Part shown: positions 22,702-29,371 of the stretch, in pieces
Layout: each line of letters begins with the position of its first letter
Numbering within the stretch: the first letter of the stretch is position 1
Assembly (NCBI GenBank): GCA_015075745.1
Contig: JABTTW010000001.1
Location: 2,976,001-3,040,000 of the forward strand
From: Planctomycetia bacterium
GTDB lineage: Bacteria; Planctomycetota; Phycisphaerae; UBA1845; UTPLA1
Length of the DNA stretch: 64,000 nucleotides
Direction of reading: 5' to 3'
Program-made: the position numbers and the translations under genes
Notes under the pieces: generated by a model
What the model was told of the DNA's origin: nothing
What the model saw: the letters and a program-made list of their open reading frames with translations, nothing else
Databases searched by the model: none

Positions 22702-24756
22702 CTAGAGTTCGCTTTCCTCGCGCGGCGGGATGGACGTCGTCGTCTCGACGTAGAGCAGCCCCGAGTAGCCATCCTGCGTCTGCGCCCCTTCGCGAATTCG
22801 GGCGATGCACCGCAGACCCGTCGGCGGCTGGTCCGGCTGCATAGCCAGGCGGTAGGCCATCGACTGCGAGATCTCAGGCTTGTAGCGAAGCTCCCGATGA
22901 ATCAGGCCGAACTCGGCGATCGTCTCGATCGGCGGCTCGTAGGAACGAAGCTCGCCGTAGGCGATGAATTCGTAATTCATGAGTTGCTCGTGCGGTCGAA
23001 ACGGCACGACGACGTACCTGACGCCGAGCTTCTCAAGCTGCTGGACGGCGAGCAATTCGTCCCGCTCGGCATAGAACTGCGCCGCCGCGACGATGCCCTC
23101 CATCGCCCGGTGATAAGGCGCGGCGACGATCGGCAGCCGCGTGCGATAAAGCAGCATCGGTCCCTCGCCGTCTTCGCAGAGGATGGCCCGGCGAGTTTCC
23201 GGGGACGCCGCGCGCGATTCAAATTCGCTGATCCGCGCGGCGACATGCGCGGTTCGCAGGTTGGTCGGATGCGGTTTGGGGCTTTCAAACTTGAAAAGAA
23301 AATCGCTGCACGGCCAAATCAGCACGACGCACGTAGCTGTGAGGAGCCCCGCATCCATCCACGGCCGCGCTGGGGTTGATTTCAAGGCACGGCGGATCAA
23401 TTCGATGAGGCCGATGATTGCGACGGTCGTCATTGGCAGGAAGGCATGATCCAGCCATCGCCGCTGGATGATCGCCAGTGCCGCAAAGCCCACGGCCGAA
23501 AGGGCGAGCATCGCTCGAGGACCGACGGGCAGCATTCCGCCTCGCACAAAGAACCACAGCGCGATCGGCAGAACGTACGGCCAGAAGCCCAGCCACAGGT
23601 GCAATTGGGCGAGAGAGAATTGGCTCGCCGTGCGCGTCCAGAGCGGTTGAAGTTCCACAATGTGGGCCGACCAGCGGATGAATTCGGAGCCCATGACATC
23701 TCCGAAGATGTGGTCGCTCTGCACGAGTGCCCAAACGGCGAACACAGCCAGTCCCGTGGCCAGCGGCGTCCAGTGGCGCAGACCGTGAACAAACTTGCTG
23801 AGTATCCCCGCTCGTGCCGCGGTGACGGCCCCCGATGGAGCGAGAAACGCCAGCAGCGTTAGTGCGACGTGAAATACGCTGACCTTGTCTGCCGCGGCGG
23901 CGGAGACGGTCGGCCAGTTTTCAATCAGAAAGCCGGTTGCAACCACAAAGAAGACGACGCAGCCCCATTCAAAACGCCGTGTCGCCCACGTCACACGTTG
24001 CGCCTCCGGTGCGCGAAAGGTCGCAATTGTCGCGCCGCACAGAATCGCCAGCCACACCGCCATCGCCTGAGGAGCGACCCACAAGGCAAGGCCCGTCGCC
24101 GCCCCACTGAGAACGGCCGCCCGCTCGGATGGAACCGCGGGTGATCCATCCGGCGTACGCCTGGGAAGCCACAAGAGCGCGCCGACCATGAAGAGCAACT
24201 CGAGCAGACAGTGATGGTCCGGATGGCCCAGGGCAAACGGCCTGTGGAATGCGGGCGAAACAAGGACCACCAACGATATTGCCAATGCGATCGGCCAACC
24301 CGTGGCCCGTTGAAGCAGCAGAATCAACAGCGAAACATAGATCGCCCCGACGATGACCGGCAGCCAAGCCGCCGCACGGTCGAGCCGGGCCTGCGGATTA
24401 TCCGCCAGCAGCGGGCCGATGGATTTCGCCGCCGCGACGACGAGGTAGTCCATCGGCGCGGTCCAGTGCAATGTCGTGCCCACCGGCCAATTGATCTCCG
24501 GCATCTGCCTGACAAGCGATGTCCGGCCCTCAAGAATCTCGCGGGCCCGATACAGGCGCATGTAATCATCTGGGTCGGTGAAGAGGACGCCGCTATCGGT
24601 AAAGACAGCCGGAGCGCGGCGGGCTTCAACGGCCACGCCCAGGGCAACAATAATGAGGCCGATGATCGGTCCCGCCACGCGACGCACAAGCACCTCCAAA
24701 GGTCGGCGGCCTCCCCGCTCGACCGCGTAGAGCATAACGCATGTTCGCGGCTCCAT
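22702..24756 (-). CDS. Multi-pass GT-C glycosyltransferase, STT3/AglB-like
   Basis: A 684-aa membrane protein. Residues 25-45 form the first membrane helix, followed by an extracytoplasmic loop with TDPDDYMRLYRAREIL, which resembles the first acidic (DxD-like) motif of STT3-type oligosaccharyltransferases. A second loop has the FALGHPDHHCLLELL block, matching the DHH-type motif of that family. About ten more hydrophobic helices follow, then a soluble domain of about 200 residues. Family knowledge suggests transfer of a lipid-linked glycan to protein or another acceptor, but the WWDYG signature is not evident, so a polyprenyl-phosphate-sugar GT-C enzyme of another class is possible. The start at 24756 is uncertain; 24735 is an alternative. 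Confidence 0.6.
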   Translation of the reverse strand: MEPRTCVMLYAVERGGRRPLEVLVRRVAGPIIGLIIVALGVAVEARRAPAVFTDSGVLFTDPDDYMRLYRAREILEGRTSLVRQMPEINWPVGTTLHWTAPMDYLVVAAAKSIGPLLADNPQARLDRAAAWLPVIVGAIYVSLLILLLQRATGWPIALAISLVVLVSPAFHRPFALGHPDHHCLLELLFMVGALLWLPRRTPDGSPAVPSERAAVLSGAATGLALWVAPQAMAVWLAILCGATIATFRAPEAQRVTWATRRFEWGCVVFFVVATGFLIENWPTVSAAAADKVSVFHVALTLLAFLAPSGAVTAARAGILSKFVHGLRHWTPLATGLAVFAVWALVQSDHIFGDVMGSEFIRWSAHIVELQPLWTRTASQFSLAQLHLWLGFWPYVLPIALWFFVRGGMLPVGPRAMLALSAVGFAALAIIQRRWLDHAFLPMTTVAIIGLIELIRRALKSTPARPWMDAGLLTATCVVLIWPCSDFLFKFESPKPHPTNLRTAHVAARISEFESRAASPETRRAILCEDGEGPMLLYRTRLPIVAAPYHRAMEGIVAAAQFYAERDELLAVQQLEKLGVRYVVVPFRPHEQLMNYEFIAYGELRSYEPPIETIAEFGLIHRELRYKPEISQSMAYRLAMQPDQPPTGLRCIARIREGAQTQDGYSGLLYVETTTSIPPREESEL

Positions 24757-24818: not shown

Positions 24819-24861
24819 AAAAAGAAAGCGTCAGGATTCACTGGGAATGCCCGACGCTTTC
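24819..24861 (-). terminator. Probable terminator downstream of the DinD-like gene
   Basis: On the minus strand GAAAGCGTC and GACGCTTTC form a 9-bp stem with a 20-nt loop, followed by TTTTT. It lies about 140 nt past the dinD-like stop codon and before the GT-C gene on the same strand. Confidence 0.5.
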
Positions 24862-24997
24862 CGGAGGGGAAAGAAGCCGATTGCCTCTGCCCGGCTCCTG
24901 ATAAATCATCGAGGGCGAACCCTCGAAGCATGAACGTCTTTTTTAGAGGTTCATTTTTATTATTTTTATTTCAGCGGCCGCAAGACGGTCGATGAAA

Positions 24998-25804
24998 TCA
25001 CTTATGAACTACTTTCTCAAGCTTTTTCTGCGTTTTCTTTAATCCACTTCGGACCTTTTTAATACTCTCTCTTGGTTTTAGGTCCTCTGGCGCGGCGCCG
25101 CTGATTTCAATCATCGTGTCCCTGACAATACCACCTACCTCACGAGCCGCGGTCTCCAGAGGGAGCTGCCCCATGATCTTGTCTCTACGGATTTTTTCTT
25201 CCGTCTGGGTTAAGCGAAATACATTTGCTGCAAGCTCAGTCCTACCCATGTGGTCAATCAAGGAATCCTTTTTTGATATGCCCTTGTGCTGCTTGATTTG
25301 CCACAGGCTCATGTTGTACATGCCTCTGTAGCCAGCATCCTGGAACCTCGCGTAATTTTCGATCTGTCCACGTCGCGCAACGCTACTGAGACTCTTTTCC
25401 CGTTCAGCAATATCGCGACGAAGGATTACGCGTTCAACATTCTCTGATTCCTCAGAAGCCTGCCGAACTGCTTCAGCGATAGAGATGAAGTACGCTTGGG
25501 CTTTGGCAACTGCGGGCTTCTTGACGTCGCCATTCATGACGGTCAAGTAGCATCCGAACCGTGAAAGCCAATAGTCGTTTCCGTCTGAACTACGTCGAAT
25601 TACTTCAAAATTGTCATGAACCGAGATGTTCAATGTTGCGCAAGCCGCGATCGCTCGATTGATGGCACCGTTAAATGAGACAGCATCCGAGTAGCCGAGT
25701 AGCTTCATTAGATCCGATGCCAGCCACCGGGATTTTTCTTCCTCGGGATTATCTACCCCGAGGCTTTCGAACTTTTGAATCTCAAATCCTTCGATAACTC
25801 TCAT
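24998..25804 (-). CDS. DinD-family (BRO-like) DNA-damage-inducible protein
   Basis: A 268-aa protein; GGGAG precedes ATG 25804. The N-terminal 110 residues form a BRO-type domain (WLASDLMKLLGYSDAVSF; WLSRFGCYLTVMNGD; AKAQAYFISIAEAVRQ). The C-terminal half matches E. coli DinD: YARFQDAGYRGMYNM, a KGISKKDSLIDHMGRTELAAN block and FRLTQTEEKIRRD. E. coli DinD is SOS-induced and has been reported to inhibit RecA filaments; this is family knowledge, not shown here. The gene is clearly richer in A+T than its neighbours, which suggests horizontal acquisition. Its promoter carries paired NrdR-like boxes like those of nrdJ. Family assignment is firm. Confidence 0.85.
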   Translation of the reverse strand: MRVIEGFEIQKFESLGVDNPEEEKSRWLASDLMKLLGYSDAVSFNGAINRAIAACATLNISVHDNFEVIRRSSDGNDYWLSRFGCYLTVMNGDVKKPAVAKAQAYFISIAEAVRQASEESENVERVILRRDIAEREKSLSSVARRGQIENYARFQDAGYRGMYNMSLWQIKQHKGISKKDSLIDHMGRTELAANVFRLTQTEEKIRRDKIMGQLPLETAAREVGGIVRDTMIEISGAAPEDLKPRESIKKVRSGLKKTQKKLEKVVHK

Positions 25805-25827
25805 AACGATGCCGCTCCCTTAGTAAG

Positions 25828-25875
25828 CAACTACATATTGTGGCCCATTCCTTGGGTGTCAACAATATTTTGTAG
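25828..25875 (-). promoter_or_regulatory. Paired NrdR-like operator boxes at the dinD-like promoter
   Basis: Two imperfect palindromes lie 24 nt upstream of the start codon: CAACTACATATTGTGG (25828-25843) and CAACAATATTTTGTAG (25860-25875). Their centres are 32 bp apart. Each matches about 10 of 16 positions of the NrdR consensus acaCwAtATatwGtgt. A TTGACA (minus strand, 25857-25862) overlaps the second box, and the first box covers the expected -10 region, so a bound repressor would block the promoter. The boxes closely resemble those of nrdJ. Confidence 0.6.
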
Positions 25876-25976
25876 TTTTTGCTTGACTTTCGGTTCTGCA
25901 AACCGATATAAGCACATCTCTGATATGGTCCACTCAACACTCAAACTATTTGAAGTCAACGCGATTAAAATATCGC

Positions 25977-26049
25977 AGGCCCCGGTGGGAATTGAACCCA
26001 CTAGTACGGCCATGCAACGGCCGCCGTCTAAGCATTTGACTTCGGGGCC
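25977..26049 (-). tRNA. tRNA-like cloverleaf, anticodon TGC (Ala-like), atypical D arm
   Basis: On the minus strand 73 nt fold with acceptor GGCCCCG/CGGGGCC (7 bp), anticodon arm CGGCC-GTTGCAT-GGCCG (anticodon TGC) and T arm GTGGG-TTCAATT-CCCAC. The D arm is only GTC/GAC with a loop lacking the usual GG, position 8 is A rather than T, and the G3:U70 pair that marks tRNA-Ala is absent (C:G here). The discriminator is T and no CCA is encoded. It may be a mobile-element tRNA, a decaying tRNA or a tRNA mimic. Confidence 0.45.
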
Positions 26050-26058
26050 CGCAATCCC

Positions 26059-26084
26059 GGCTGGGGGGCTTTCGCCCTCCAGCC
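26059..26084 (-). other. Strong hairpin between the 46-aa gene and the tRNA-like sequence
   Basis: GGCTGG-A-GGGC, a GAAA tetraloop, then GCCC-C-CCAGCC on the minus strand: 10 pairs with one mismatch. There is no T run, so it is not a standard terminator. A structured 3' UTR or a processing site are options. Confidence 0.55.
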
Positions 26085-26198
26085 CACTTATTCCTTCCCA
26101 GTCCGATTTGGACACGTCAGCTTCTCCGTTTCCGGAGAGCAGCAAACGCGCGCTTCAGGGGAAGCCGTAGTCGCTTCGTGGCTAGTAGATCAACCGGC

Positions 26199-26339
26199 CT
26201 AACGACTTTTCTTGCGGTCAGGAGCTTGGGTCAGCACTGACCCGGCAAGCTTTTTCGCCGCTTTCGAACTCGTCTTCCCTTTTAGCACTTTGCCAGCAAG
26301 TGATGCTAGCTTCTTTGAAGACTTCTCATTCTTAGCCAT
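26199..26339 (-). CDS. 46-aa basic small protein
   Basis: An uninterrupted frame with a near-perfect ribosome site, AAAGGAGGTGAGAGA, ending 1 nt before the ATG at 26339 (GGAGG about 8 nt upstream). The product starts MAKNEKSSKKLASLAGKVL, has a repeated S-S-K-K/A-LA pattern (SSKKLASLAGKVLKGK; SSKAAKKLAGSVL) and ends TQAPDRKKSR. It is strongly basic, probably helical, without Cys or a membrane segment. I recall similar short proteins ending in an ALTQAP-type motif in other bacteria but know no function. It lies 56 nt downstream of nrdJ on the same strand and may be co-transcribed with it. Confidence 0.7.
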   Translation of the reverse strand: MAKNEKSSKKLASLAGKVLKGKTSSKAAKKLAGSVLTQAPDRKKSR

Positions 26340-26395
26340 ATTCTCTCACCTCCTTTCGCTCATTCAAAGTAGGTTTAGAGGTCAACTGCTAACAG

Positions 26396-29068
26396 TTAGC
26401 AGTGCGAGTACCCGCATCCGTGGCACTTAGTGCATCCCTCACCGAAATCGAGCACCCCGCCGCACTCCGGACATTTCAACTTGTAATCGTTGCGATGCGA
26501 GGCCACCTGAACAGCCGGCTCAGCGAGTCGCCCGGCGGTAATGGTCACATCGGCGTCGTGTTTGTCGCCGCCGTTGCCGTTTCCGTTCTTCGGCGATGCG
26601 CCGGCATCCGCATTTGAAGGATCGACTTCGCCCAGGAGCAGGGCCCGCAGGCCGAATCGCTCCTTGGCCTTGGTGTACTTCTTGAGCCCTTGGGCCAGGC
26701 CGTCGCCGAGCGACATGATCCGGCCATCGCGCGTCGGGATCTGCATCGACGAGCCGATGCCCGATAGCTGCTTAATGACGTAAGACAATCGCCCACCGGC
26801 ACGCAGCCACAGGCTGATCATCCGGCAGATGGCCTCCAGATCGCTGGTGGCGATGTCGCCGCCCTTGCCAAGCTGAGCAAAAACTTCCAACTCACGCTCG
26901 GCCTGCGGGTCCACGGTGATCTGAATGTGCATGTTGCCGAACGGCGTCTGCTGTCGAACGCGAATGCCGCTGGTGATGGAGGGCAGCTCGCGCGGCTCAA
27001 GCGAGGGCGAGGTCTTCTTAACCTCGGTGATTCGCTCGCCGAAGAGATTCCGCTCGGTGGTGATTCGCATTCGCTCGCCCTCGGCCTTGCGCTCGATGAC
27101 TTCACGATCCAGGCTCGGCGCGACGGCAGCCGAAGGGCTCCCGGCGGCCTTGGCCTTCATCTCCTCATGCTTCTTCTCCGAGTCGGCCAGCGCCATCGGC
27201 TGACTGGAGCGGCATCCATCTCGATACACGGTGACCCCCTTGCATCTCAGGCTGTAGGCCATCCTGTAAATCCCGTCCACGTCGGCCGGGCCGGCTTCGC
27301 TCGGGAAGTTGATGGTCTTGCTGATCGAGGAGTCGCAGTGCTTCTGGAAAGCTGCCTGCATCTTAATATGCCATTCCGGCGAGATGTCGTGGGCGCACAC
27401 GAAGACGGCTCGTACGTCCTCCGGAATGTCATCAATATGAGCGAGGGTGCCTTCCTTGGCGATCTGTTCCATCAGTCCCTCGCTGTAGAATCCCCGCTCT
27501 CGAGCCACGTGAACAAACGTCTCGTTGCTCTCGATCATCGGGGTCTTGCCTTCTTCCTGCCCCTTTAAGACGTTGCGGAAGAAGGCAAGGCTGAACATCG
27601 GCTCCACGCCGCCGGAACAATCCGCGATAATGCTGATGGTTCCGGTCGGAGCGACCGTTGTCGCACAACTGTTGCGCATCGGGCGATGATGCTGCGTGTC
27701 CCACGCGCTGTTGGTCCAGTTCGGGAAGCTGCCGCGCTCCAGGGCCAGCTTCTCCGAGTAATTGTGGGATTCATCATTGAGAAACTTCATGAAGCGCTCG
27801 CCCCATGACACGCCGGCGTCGGAGTTATAAGGCACGCCGAGCTTATAGAGCGCATCGGCGAAGCCCATGACGCCCAGGCCGATCTTGCGATTGGCCTTAC
27901 AGACGTCGTCGATCTGCGGCAGCGGGTAGTTATTGGCGTCGATCACGTTATCAAGAAAACGAACCGACTCGTGAATCGCCGTCCGCAAGGCGTCCCAGTC
28001 AACTTCCGCGTCCGCCGTACAGGCATCCTTCACGAACAAGCCGAGATTGATACTGCCGAGGTTGCACGCTTCGTAGGGAAGCAGCGGCTGCTCGCCGCAG
28101 GGGTTCGTCGCTTCCATCCGGCCGACGTGCGGCGTCGGATTCGCCTCGTTGATGCGGTCCATGAAAACCACGCCCGGCTCGCCCGTCTGCCACGCGTGTT
28201 TGATGATGATGTCCCAGATATCCTGCCGCGTGTAAACCGGCGTCAGGCCGTCGTATTTCTCCGTCGGAATCAGATCCTTGACCGAATAGTCCGCGATGCG
28301 CACGGACTTGGGGACGTAAAACTCGAGATTGTTGCGGGGGTTTCGAGTGAGGTGCGGTGAATGGGGGTCCTTCAGGAAGGCGTCCATCCATTCGTCGGTC
28401 ATCTTCACCGAGATGTTGTAATTCGTGAACTGGGTTAGGTCCTGCTTGGCGTGCAGGAACTTGATGATGTCCGGGTGGTGGACGTACATCATGCCCATGT
28501 TCGCGCCCCGGCGAAACGCGCCCTGTTGAATCGCGTTCGTCGCCTCGCTGAAGGCTCGCCAGAAGGAGATCGGCCCGCTGGTCGTGCCGCCGCTTGACTT
28601 GATGTAGTCGCCCGTGGGACGAAGGGCGTCAAAGGCGAAGCCCGTTCCGCCGCCCGCCTTCTGAATCAATGCCGTATGCTTGATCGAATCAAAGATCCCG
28701 TCGATTGAATCGGGAACCGGCAGGACAAAGCATGCGCTCAACATGCCCATCGAGCGGCCCGCATTCATCAGGGTCGGGCTGTTGGGCATGAACTTGCGTG
28801 ACGCCATGAGATTCTTGAATCGCGCCTTCCACTCGCTGCGACAAGACTCGTTACCGCCGTAAGTCAGTTCGACGTCGGCCATGACCCGCGCGACCCGCTC
28901 AAAGAGGTCGTCCGGCTGCTCCGTGCATTCCCCGGACTCGTTCTTCTCCAGATAGCGCGCGCGCAAAACCCGCAGGGCATTTTCGGTCAGGCCGAACTCA
29001 CCATAGCGAGCCGAGGGTGCGACATCCTTGTCGCCGACCTTCATTCGATCCGTCGAAAGATTCACCAT
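26396..29068 (-). CDS. nrdJ: Adenosylcobalamin-dependent ribonucleotide reductase (class II)
   Basis: An 890-aa enzyme reducing ribonucleotides to deoxyribonucleotides without oxygen dependence. ATG 29068 is chosen (GGGTGA just upstream); the open frame goes 31 codons further, into the leader. It begins with a short N-terminal region, then the barrel with SPTLMNAGRSMGMLSACF (first active-site Cys), GGGTGFAFDALRPTGD, and NPCGEQPLLPYEACNLGS (radical Cys within the Glu-containing motif). The substrate-phosphate block is PTGTISIIADCSGGVEPMF. The C-terminus is a Cys-rich tail (CPECGGVLDFGEG..CHGCGYSHC) that probably passes reducing equivalents to the active site. Control by NrdR is predicted from boxes at 29325-29371. 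No class I or III genes are in the window. Confidence 0.95.
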   Translation of the reverse strand: MVNLSTDRMKVGDKDVAPSARYGEFGLTENALRVLRARYLEKNESGECTEQPDDLFERVARVMADVELTYGGNESCRSEWKARFKNLMASRKFMPNSPTLMNAGRSMGMLSACFVLPVPDSIDGIFDSIKHTALIQKAGGGTGFAFDALRPTGDYIKSSGGTTSGPISFWRAFSEATNAIQQGAFRRGANMGMMYVHHPDIIKFLHAKQDLTQFTNYNISVKMTDEWMDAFLKDPHSPHLTRNPRNNLEFYVPKSVRIADYSVKDLIPTEKYDGLTPVYTRQDIWDIIIKHAWQTGEPGVVFMDRINEANPTPHVGRMEATNPCGEQPLLPYEACNLGSINLGLFVKDACTADAEVDWDALRTAIHESVRFLDNVIDANNYPLPQIDDVCKANRKIGLGVMGFADALYKLGVPYNSDAGVSWGERFMKFLNDESHNYSEKLALERGSFPNWTNSAWDTQHHRPMRNSCATTVAPTGTISIIADCSGGVEPMFSLAFFRNVLKGQEEGKTPMIESNETFVHVARERGFYSEGLMEQIAKEGTLAHIDDIPEDVRAVFVCAHDISPEWHIKMQAAFQKHCDSSISKTINFPSEAGPADVDGIYRMAYSLRCKGVTVYRDGCRSSQPMALADSEKKHEEMKAKAAGSPSAAVAPSLDREVIERKAEGERMRITTERNLFGERITEVKKTSPSLEPRELPSITSGIRVRQQTPFGNMHIQITVDPQAERELEVFAQLGKGGDIATSDLEAICRMISLWLRAGGRLSYVIKQLSGIGSSMQIPTRDGRIMSLGDGLAQGLKKYTKAKERFGLRALLLGEVDPSNADAGASPKNGNGNGGDKHDADVTITAGRLAEPAVQVASHRNDYKLKCPECGGVLDFGEGCTKCHGCGYSHC

Positions 29069-29206
29069 ACTTGTCACCCGGTTCCCGATATGGGCCGCGG
29101 CTTTCCGCCGCCGGCCGCGCCTGATCAATCGATTGCGACCGTCGCCACGAACGGCCGCCACCGATTGAGTTTGATTCCATCTGACCGAGGTCGAACTCCA
29201 ACGAGA

Positions 29207-29318: not shown

Positions 29319-29371
29319 TTAATACCCCAATATGTAGGGGGTGTCAACGAAATCTTATCAAAATATTGTAG
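29319..29371 (-). promoter_or_regulatory. nrdJ promoter with paired NrdR boxes
   Basis: On the minus strand TTGACA (29347-29342), a 17-nt spacer and TATTAA (29324-29319) form a near-consensus sigma-70 promoter. The spacer is almost wholly the palindrome CCCCTACATATTGGGG (29325-29340). A second box, CTACAATATTTTGATA (29356-29371), lies upstream with its centre 31 bp away, three helical turns. Tandem boxes with 31-32 bp spacing are the hallmark of NrdR operators, and the cores match the consensus. Confidence 0.8.

Follow-up and report, generated by a model that had tools for sequence, protein, structure and literature searches.

A predicted NrdR operator in front of an acquired phage-type dinD-like gene in a Planctomycetia bacterium

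Introduction

In Escherichia coli, dinD codes for the DNA damage-inducible protein D and belongs to the LexA regulon, and its product has been described as modulating RecA filaments.

NrdR controls the nrd operons of ribonucleotide reductase (RNR), and its nucleotide response is known in some detail: with dATP and ATP bound, the protein assembles into tetramers able to bind a pair of boxes spaced by about three turns, and ATP alone yields non-binding forms (PMC12051234, PMC9110341). The spacer between the two boxes is 15-16 bp in most bacteria (PMC12051234), and positions C4/G13 of the box are critical for the Streptomyces NrdR, their inversion weakening binding about 50-fold or more (PMC9110341). 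With regard to nrdR itself, NrdR is known to control the gene in other bacteria (PMC9110341), and in the Proteobacteria of PMC5343134 nrdR is not NrdR-controlled. The prevailing view of NrdR is that of a repressor specific to RNR genes; the non-RNR target that we found described is topA of Pseudomonas aeruginosa, a DNA-metabolism gene with a single box that is reported to be activated in exponential growth (PMC4409342).

The locus described here lies in a window of 64 kb, the whole stretch of DNA that was analysed, from a host genome (G000) of 5.01 Mb in four contigs. It resembles the known NrdR regulon in having a pair of 16-bp palindromes with a 15- or 16-bp spacer, the C/G positions, a position over a putative promoter and an NrdR protein in the same genome, but the gene that would be controlled is not an RNR gene but an acquired, phage-type one. 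This recalls topA, although the canonical pair suggests repression here. The gene shares with E. coli dinD its protein family and a connection to a DNA-stress regulator; unlike E. coli dinD, which is under LexA, it has NrdR boxes in front and no canonical LexA box. Profiles of phrog_8036 and of the PADLOC candidate PDC-S13 match nearly the whole protein, and the profile libraries record no link of either to NrdR. A literature search for DinD together with NrdR gave one paper that contains both words, on E. coli RpoD promoters.

Results

Two 16-bp near-palindromes resembling the nrdJ boxes of the lineage precede the dinD-like gene (Table 1), with starts 32 bp apart and a spacer of 16 bp, and 23 bp separate the proximal box from the ATG at 25804. 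The nrdJ pair measures 31 bp from start to start with a 15-bp spacer, so that both spacers fall within the 15-16 bp, or integer helical turns, expected of an NrdR operator, and C4/G13 are present in both boxes of each pair. An earlier note on this DNA had placed the dinD pair at 25828-25875 and had pointed to cores common to both operators; its positions and spacings are all borne out, and the exact strings were recovered, CTACATATTG and ACAATATTTTG each occurring by exact match in the 64-kb window only at the nrdJ and dinD pairs. Read towards the gene, the order is ACAATATTTTG...CTACATATTG at nrdJ and CAAAATATTGT...CAATATGTAG at dinD, each dinD box being the reverse complement of its nrdJ counterpart relative to its own gene. 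Because the boxes are palindromic, this orientation is irrelevant for binding. A perfect inverted repeat, CGGTT-CTGCA-AACCG, is found upstream of the dinD operator at 25893-25907.

Table 1. Coordinates of the genes and of the predicted regulatory features (positions in the window unless another reference is given)
Feature	Position	Strand	Remarks
Proximal putative NrdR box of dinD-like gene	25828..25843	-	CCACAATATGTAGTTG (gene strand); PWM 17.9
Distal putative NrdR box of dinD-like gene	25860..25875	-	CTACAAAATATTGTTG (gene strand); PWM 18.1
Putative -35 TTGACA of dinD-like gene	25857..25862	-	inside TTGACACCC
Proximal putative NrdR box of nrdJ	29325..29340	-	CCCCTACATATTGGGG; PWM 18.6
Distal putative NrdR box of nrdJ	29356..29371	-	CTACAATATTTTGATA; PWM 14.0; conserved across family
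nrdJ	26396..29161	-	B12-dependent (class II) ribonucleotide reductase; sole match of the protein in the genome
46-aa ORF	26199..26339	-	lysine-rich; phrog_5079; directly behind nrdJ
tRNA-Ala(UGC)-like gene	25975..26050	-	41.9 bits, weakest of the genome's 47 tRNA matches
dinD-like gene	24998..25804	-	268 aa; Bro-N; phrog_8036; PADLOC PDC-S13
Inserted segment, ~1.4 kb	24942..26382	.	46-aa ORF, tRNA-like gene, operator and dinD; 49% GC
Conserved nrdJ 3' element	24819..24880	-	invariant GGCTTCTTTCCCCTCCGGAAAGC and covarying terminator hairpin; separated from nrdJ by the insert
nrdR	G000:C1:3366584-3367027		TIGR00244, 171 bits; sole copy in genome
Putative NrdR box pair before nrdR	L001:1974-2021 (G000:C1)		ACCCAATTTATAGAGT / ATACAAGATGTTGGGG; 32 bp; score 25.5

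The 3' end of the distal box of dinD overlaps the putative -35, and the -10, weak in sequence (AATATG/TATGTA), would sit within the proximal box; a stricter promoter scan gave no consensus promoter upstream of dinD. At nrdJ the proximal box is located between a -35 TTGACA and a -10 TATTAA, and the 9-mer TTGACACCC occurs in the window only at the dinD and nrdJ promoters.

The strength of the site was measured with a symmetric position weight matrix (PWM) built from 32 boxes that precede nrdJ in family and order members other than the host. Ranked by this matrix, the dinD pair is the top site of the window with 36.0, followed by nrdJ with 32.6, and the next independent site reaches 4.7. The dinD score is comparable with the best among 29 nrdJ loci of relatives (37.4); 25 of these 29 score at least 20, a proportion that is not independent of the matrix, since many of them supplied training boxes. 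Simulated first-order Markov DNA (2 x 20 Mb) contained no pair of at least 20, the maxima being 19.9 in the 20 Mb with the composition of the insert and 19.6 in the 20 Mb with that of the window. The consensus pair CNANATNTNG-N21/22-CNANATNTNG is found in the 5.01-Mb genome only at nrdJ (N21) and dinD (N22), a strict pattern that misses the looser pair before nrdR. In 17 genomes of the family the same consensus pair stands before nrdJ in most and is rare otherwise, and its occurrences away from nrdJ, dinD aside, have PWM scores of at most 22.4.

NrdR is encoded in the host genome by a single gene, and the protein keeps the DNA-contact motifs DSR and RRRR in its zinc ribbon. The box pair in front of nrdR has TTGACACCC as its -35, and autoregulation of the host nrdR is probable from this arrangement. 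Since nrdR is preceded by a pair of its own, a functioning regulon is likely, and its predicted members in this genome are nrdJ, nrdR and dinD. The host also has lexA, and a search upstream of dinD for canonical LexA boxes of the gamma, alpha, Gram-positive and Verrucomicrobia types found none; boxes of these types are essentially missing before dinD homologues too, and no LexA motif emerged for the lineage itself, whose box may differ from these types.

The best model for the protein is NCBIfam DinD NF008573, at 201.9 bits and under the cut-off of 242, and for this reason the gene is called dinD-like; the Bro-N domain PF02498 scores 28.4 bits, over its cut-off of 25.6. Along the minus strand, nrdJ is followed by the 46-aa ORF, the tRNA-Ala-like gene, the palindromes, the dinD-like gene, a STT3/AglB-like gene and ligA. 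The segment between nrdJ and the STT3/AglB-like gene bears the marks of an insertion: its GC content is 49% against 61% for the window, and GC3 is 0.52 in dinD against 0.75-0.81 in the neighbours. In a genome of the same genus (G016) and in G001, nrdJ, STT3 and ligA follow one another uninterrupted with a nrdJ-STT3 gap of ~250 bp, compared with ~1.6 kb in the host, and the other genome of the same genus (G015) has no insert directly after nrdJ. Direct repeats of 9 bp, TTTAGAGGT, flank the insert at 24942-24950 and 26374-26382, and are possibly a target duplication or possibly due to chance. Both the 46-aa ORF, which has a strong, near-perfect Shine-Dalgarno sequence (AAAGGAGGTGA), and dinD match phage protein families. 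The tRNA-Ala(UGC)-like gene has a D loop without GG, and a normal tRNA-Ala(UGC) stands beside tRNA-Ile(GAU) elsewhere in the genome (L318); the copy in the insert may have been brought by a phage or be in decay. Searches for the source of the insert gave no match in plasmid DNA, the 46-aa ORF had no match in plasmids or in the other loci analysed, and no second copy of the dinD promoter or of the tRNA-like gene was found in the genome. The STT3/AglB-like oligosaccharyl transferase (22702-24756, minus strand) matches TIGR04154 with 55.5 bits, far under its cut-off, and its location between nrdJ and ligA recurs in other genomes of the family.

The insert lies between nrdJ and a conserved 3' element of nrdJ. 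This element is order-wide, follows nrdJ also in loci L024-L052, and contains GGCTTCTTTCCCCTCCGGAAAGC unchanged in 24/24 aligned sequences. In its terminator hairpin 97% of cells are paired and double changes occupy 25 cells, compared with 8 after shuffling. The invariant part is predicted to be able to fold instead into a hairpin that has a loop of anti-Shine-Dalgarno type (CTTTCC-CCTCC-GGAAAG) and is incompatible with the terminator. Rfam had no match for the element, which may be a so far unrecognised attenuator of nrdJ or a small RNA from its 3' end. A second, partial copy was observed upstream of nrdJ in one genome (L041:375-472, G415), with a T run one base shorter and without the terminator. 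Because the insert precedes the terminator element, transcription running on from nrdJ may add to the expression of dinD.

Of the 16 further family genomes, 14 lack the dinD gene, both same-genus genomes among them, and the remaining two carry relatives that are only 29-30% identical. In the class, 56 of 397 genomes, counting the host, have a dinD relative, the others being at most 42% identical in full-length matches. Viral contigs supplied the closest relatives identified (58%), followed by assorted phyla (54%) and phages (51%), with plasmids also among the sources. The dinD-like gene is a horizontal, phage-type acquisition, and one that looks recent and private to the host genome.

The earlier note had proposed conservation of the box pair before dinD homologues in related genomes as a check, and the outcome went against a general DinD-NrdR link: no credible NrdR pair was found at ~220 homologues from the same class, the same phylum, 80 other bacterial loci and 80 viral loci. 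Upstream of the 160 homologues outside the group the maximum PWM score was 10.1, against 12.7 for ~800 pieces drawn at random from these loci, and 68 further loci or upstream pieces of the phylum and class sets yielded nothing credible. Two candidates were discarded. A pair of 20.9 in L285 is downstream of its dinD and off-spaced at 33 bp. The sole upstream candidate in whole loci, a weak pair scoring 20.0 in L148, precedes a dinD operon within a prophage-like region of a delta-proteobacterium; the same genome has a better pair (21.7) before an unrelated gene, so a score of 20 is at chance level there and the candidate was rejected. An nrdJ gene was seen next to a dinD homologue once, in the distant L104, which lacks a pair.

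Discussion

Our results point to 25828-25875 as a genuine NrdR operator that puts an acquired, phage-type dinD-like gene under the dNTP-sensing repressor of the host, a reading to which we give a probability of about 0.7. In silico, dinD is well supported as a candidate NrdR target by the PWM score, the spacing, C4/G13, the intact NrdR of the host and the nearness of the boxes to the ATG. The poor -10 and the outcome of the stricter promoter scan weigh against this reading, as does the possible read-through from nrdJ. The conservation test does not reach this local claim, because the orthologue is absent from close relatives. By analogy with the published biochemistry of other NrdRs, from which the nucleotide mechanism is borrowed, NrdR would sit on the dinD pair when dATP is ample, covering TTGACA from the distal box and the -10 region from the proximal box, which would block RNA polymerase and keep dinD off. 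A drop in dATP would release NrdR from the DNA, and nrdJ, nrdR and dinD would then all be expressed. What we infer from this arrangement is that the host NrdR binds the pair and represses dinD, and that expressing DinD is beneficial during dNTP shortage.

An explanation that we consider unlikely is that NrdR does bind the operator, which however came along with the insert only by chance, as the relic of a nrd-linked promoter of the donor, with dinD having no dNTP role or being transcribed mainly by read-through from nrdJ. A site private to one genome fits such an origin, as do the recent look and low GC of the insert, the lack of the gene in 14/16 other family genomes and the separation of nrdJ from its conserved terminator element. 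A decaying relic is expected to be weaker than the native nrdJ pair, however, and the dinD pair is stronger; its position is favourable too, since it overlaps the -35 element and lies 23 bp from the ATG.

How the operator arose is a separate matter, and import with the element, a rearranged duplication or selection in place are all possible. That the nrdJ promoter gave rise to the dinD operator locally, by being duplicated and rearranged, seems rather improbable to us. The confinement of TTGACACCC to the two promoters within the window speaks for it, and the best local alignment of the dinD and nrdJ upstream regions, which is in inverted orientation, beats 494 of 500 shuffles; yet box similarity alone could account for that alignment, and different parts are involved in the two orientations, TTGACACCC with its flank in the best same-orientation match and one box with its flank in the inverted one. 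The order and orientation of the boxes are inverted as well, which disfavours simple copying of the nrdJ promoter, and querying the genome at the DNA level with the dinD promoter does not recover nrdJ even at E<=10.

There is little chance that the pair is a phage-type operator of some other repressor that merely looks like tandem NrdR boxes. The gene does come from a phage-rich family, and tandem operators are frequent on phage genes, but both boxes carry the full NrdR consensus at NrdR spacing, the same class of site occurs at nrdJ and nrdR, and the insert contains no repressor gene. That DinD-family genes in general are NrdR targets is refuted for the sets scanned, where against the single weak pair of L148, at chance level, stand ~220 homologues without a credible one.

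The idea in the earlier note that a BRO/DinD protein is tied to the dNTP pool through NrdR is thus supported, on sequence grounds, for the host gene with its canonical operator and not for the BRO/DinD family at large: it is the strength of the site that carries the local claim, and the general claim fails. The best reading of these data is that dinD is a new, lineage-private candidate target of NrdR, which does not imply a general DinD-NrdR link. More tentatively, a mobile or phage-derived gene may have captured, or been captured by, the dNTP sensor of its host, so that it would be expressed exactly at dNTP shortage, as an alternative to LexA/SOS control. If the operator works as predicted, it would show that a canonical and very strong operator pair can couple a mobile gene to the dNTP pool, and dNTP shortage rather than DNA damage would become directly testable as the trigger of a DinD-type protein, in a lineage where LexA is present too.
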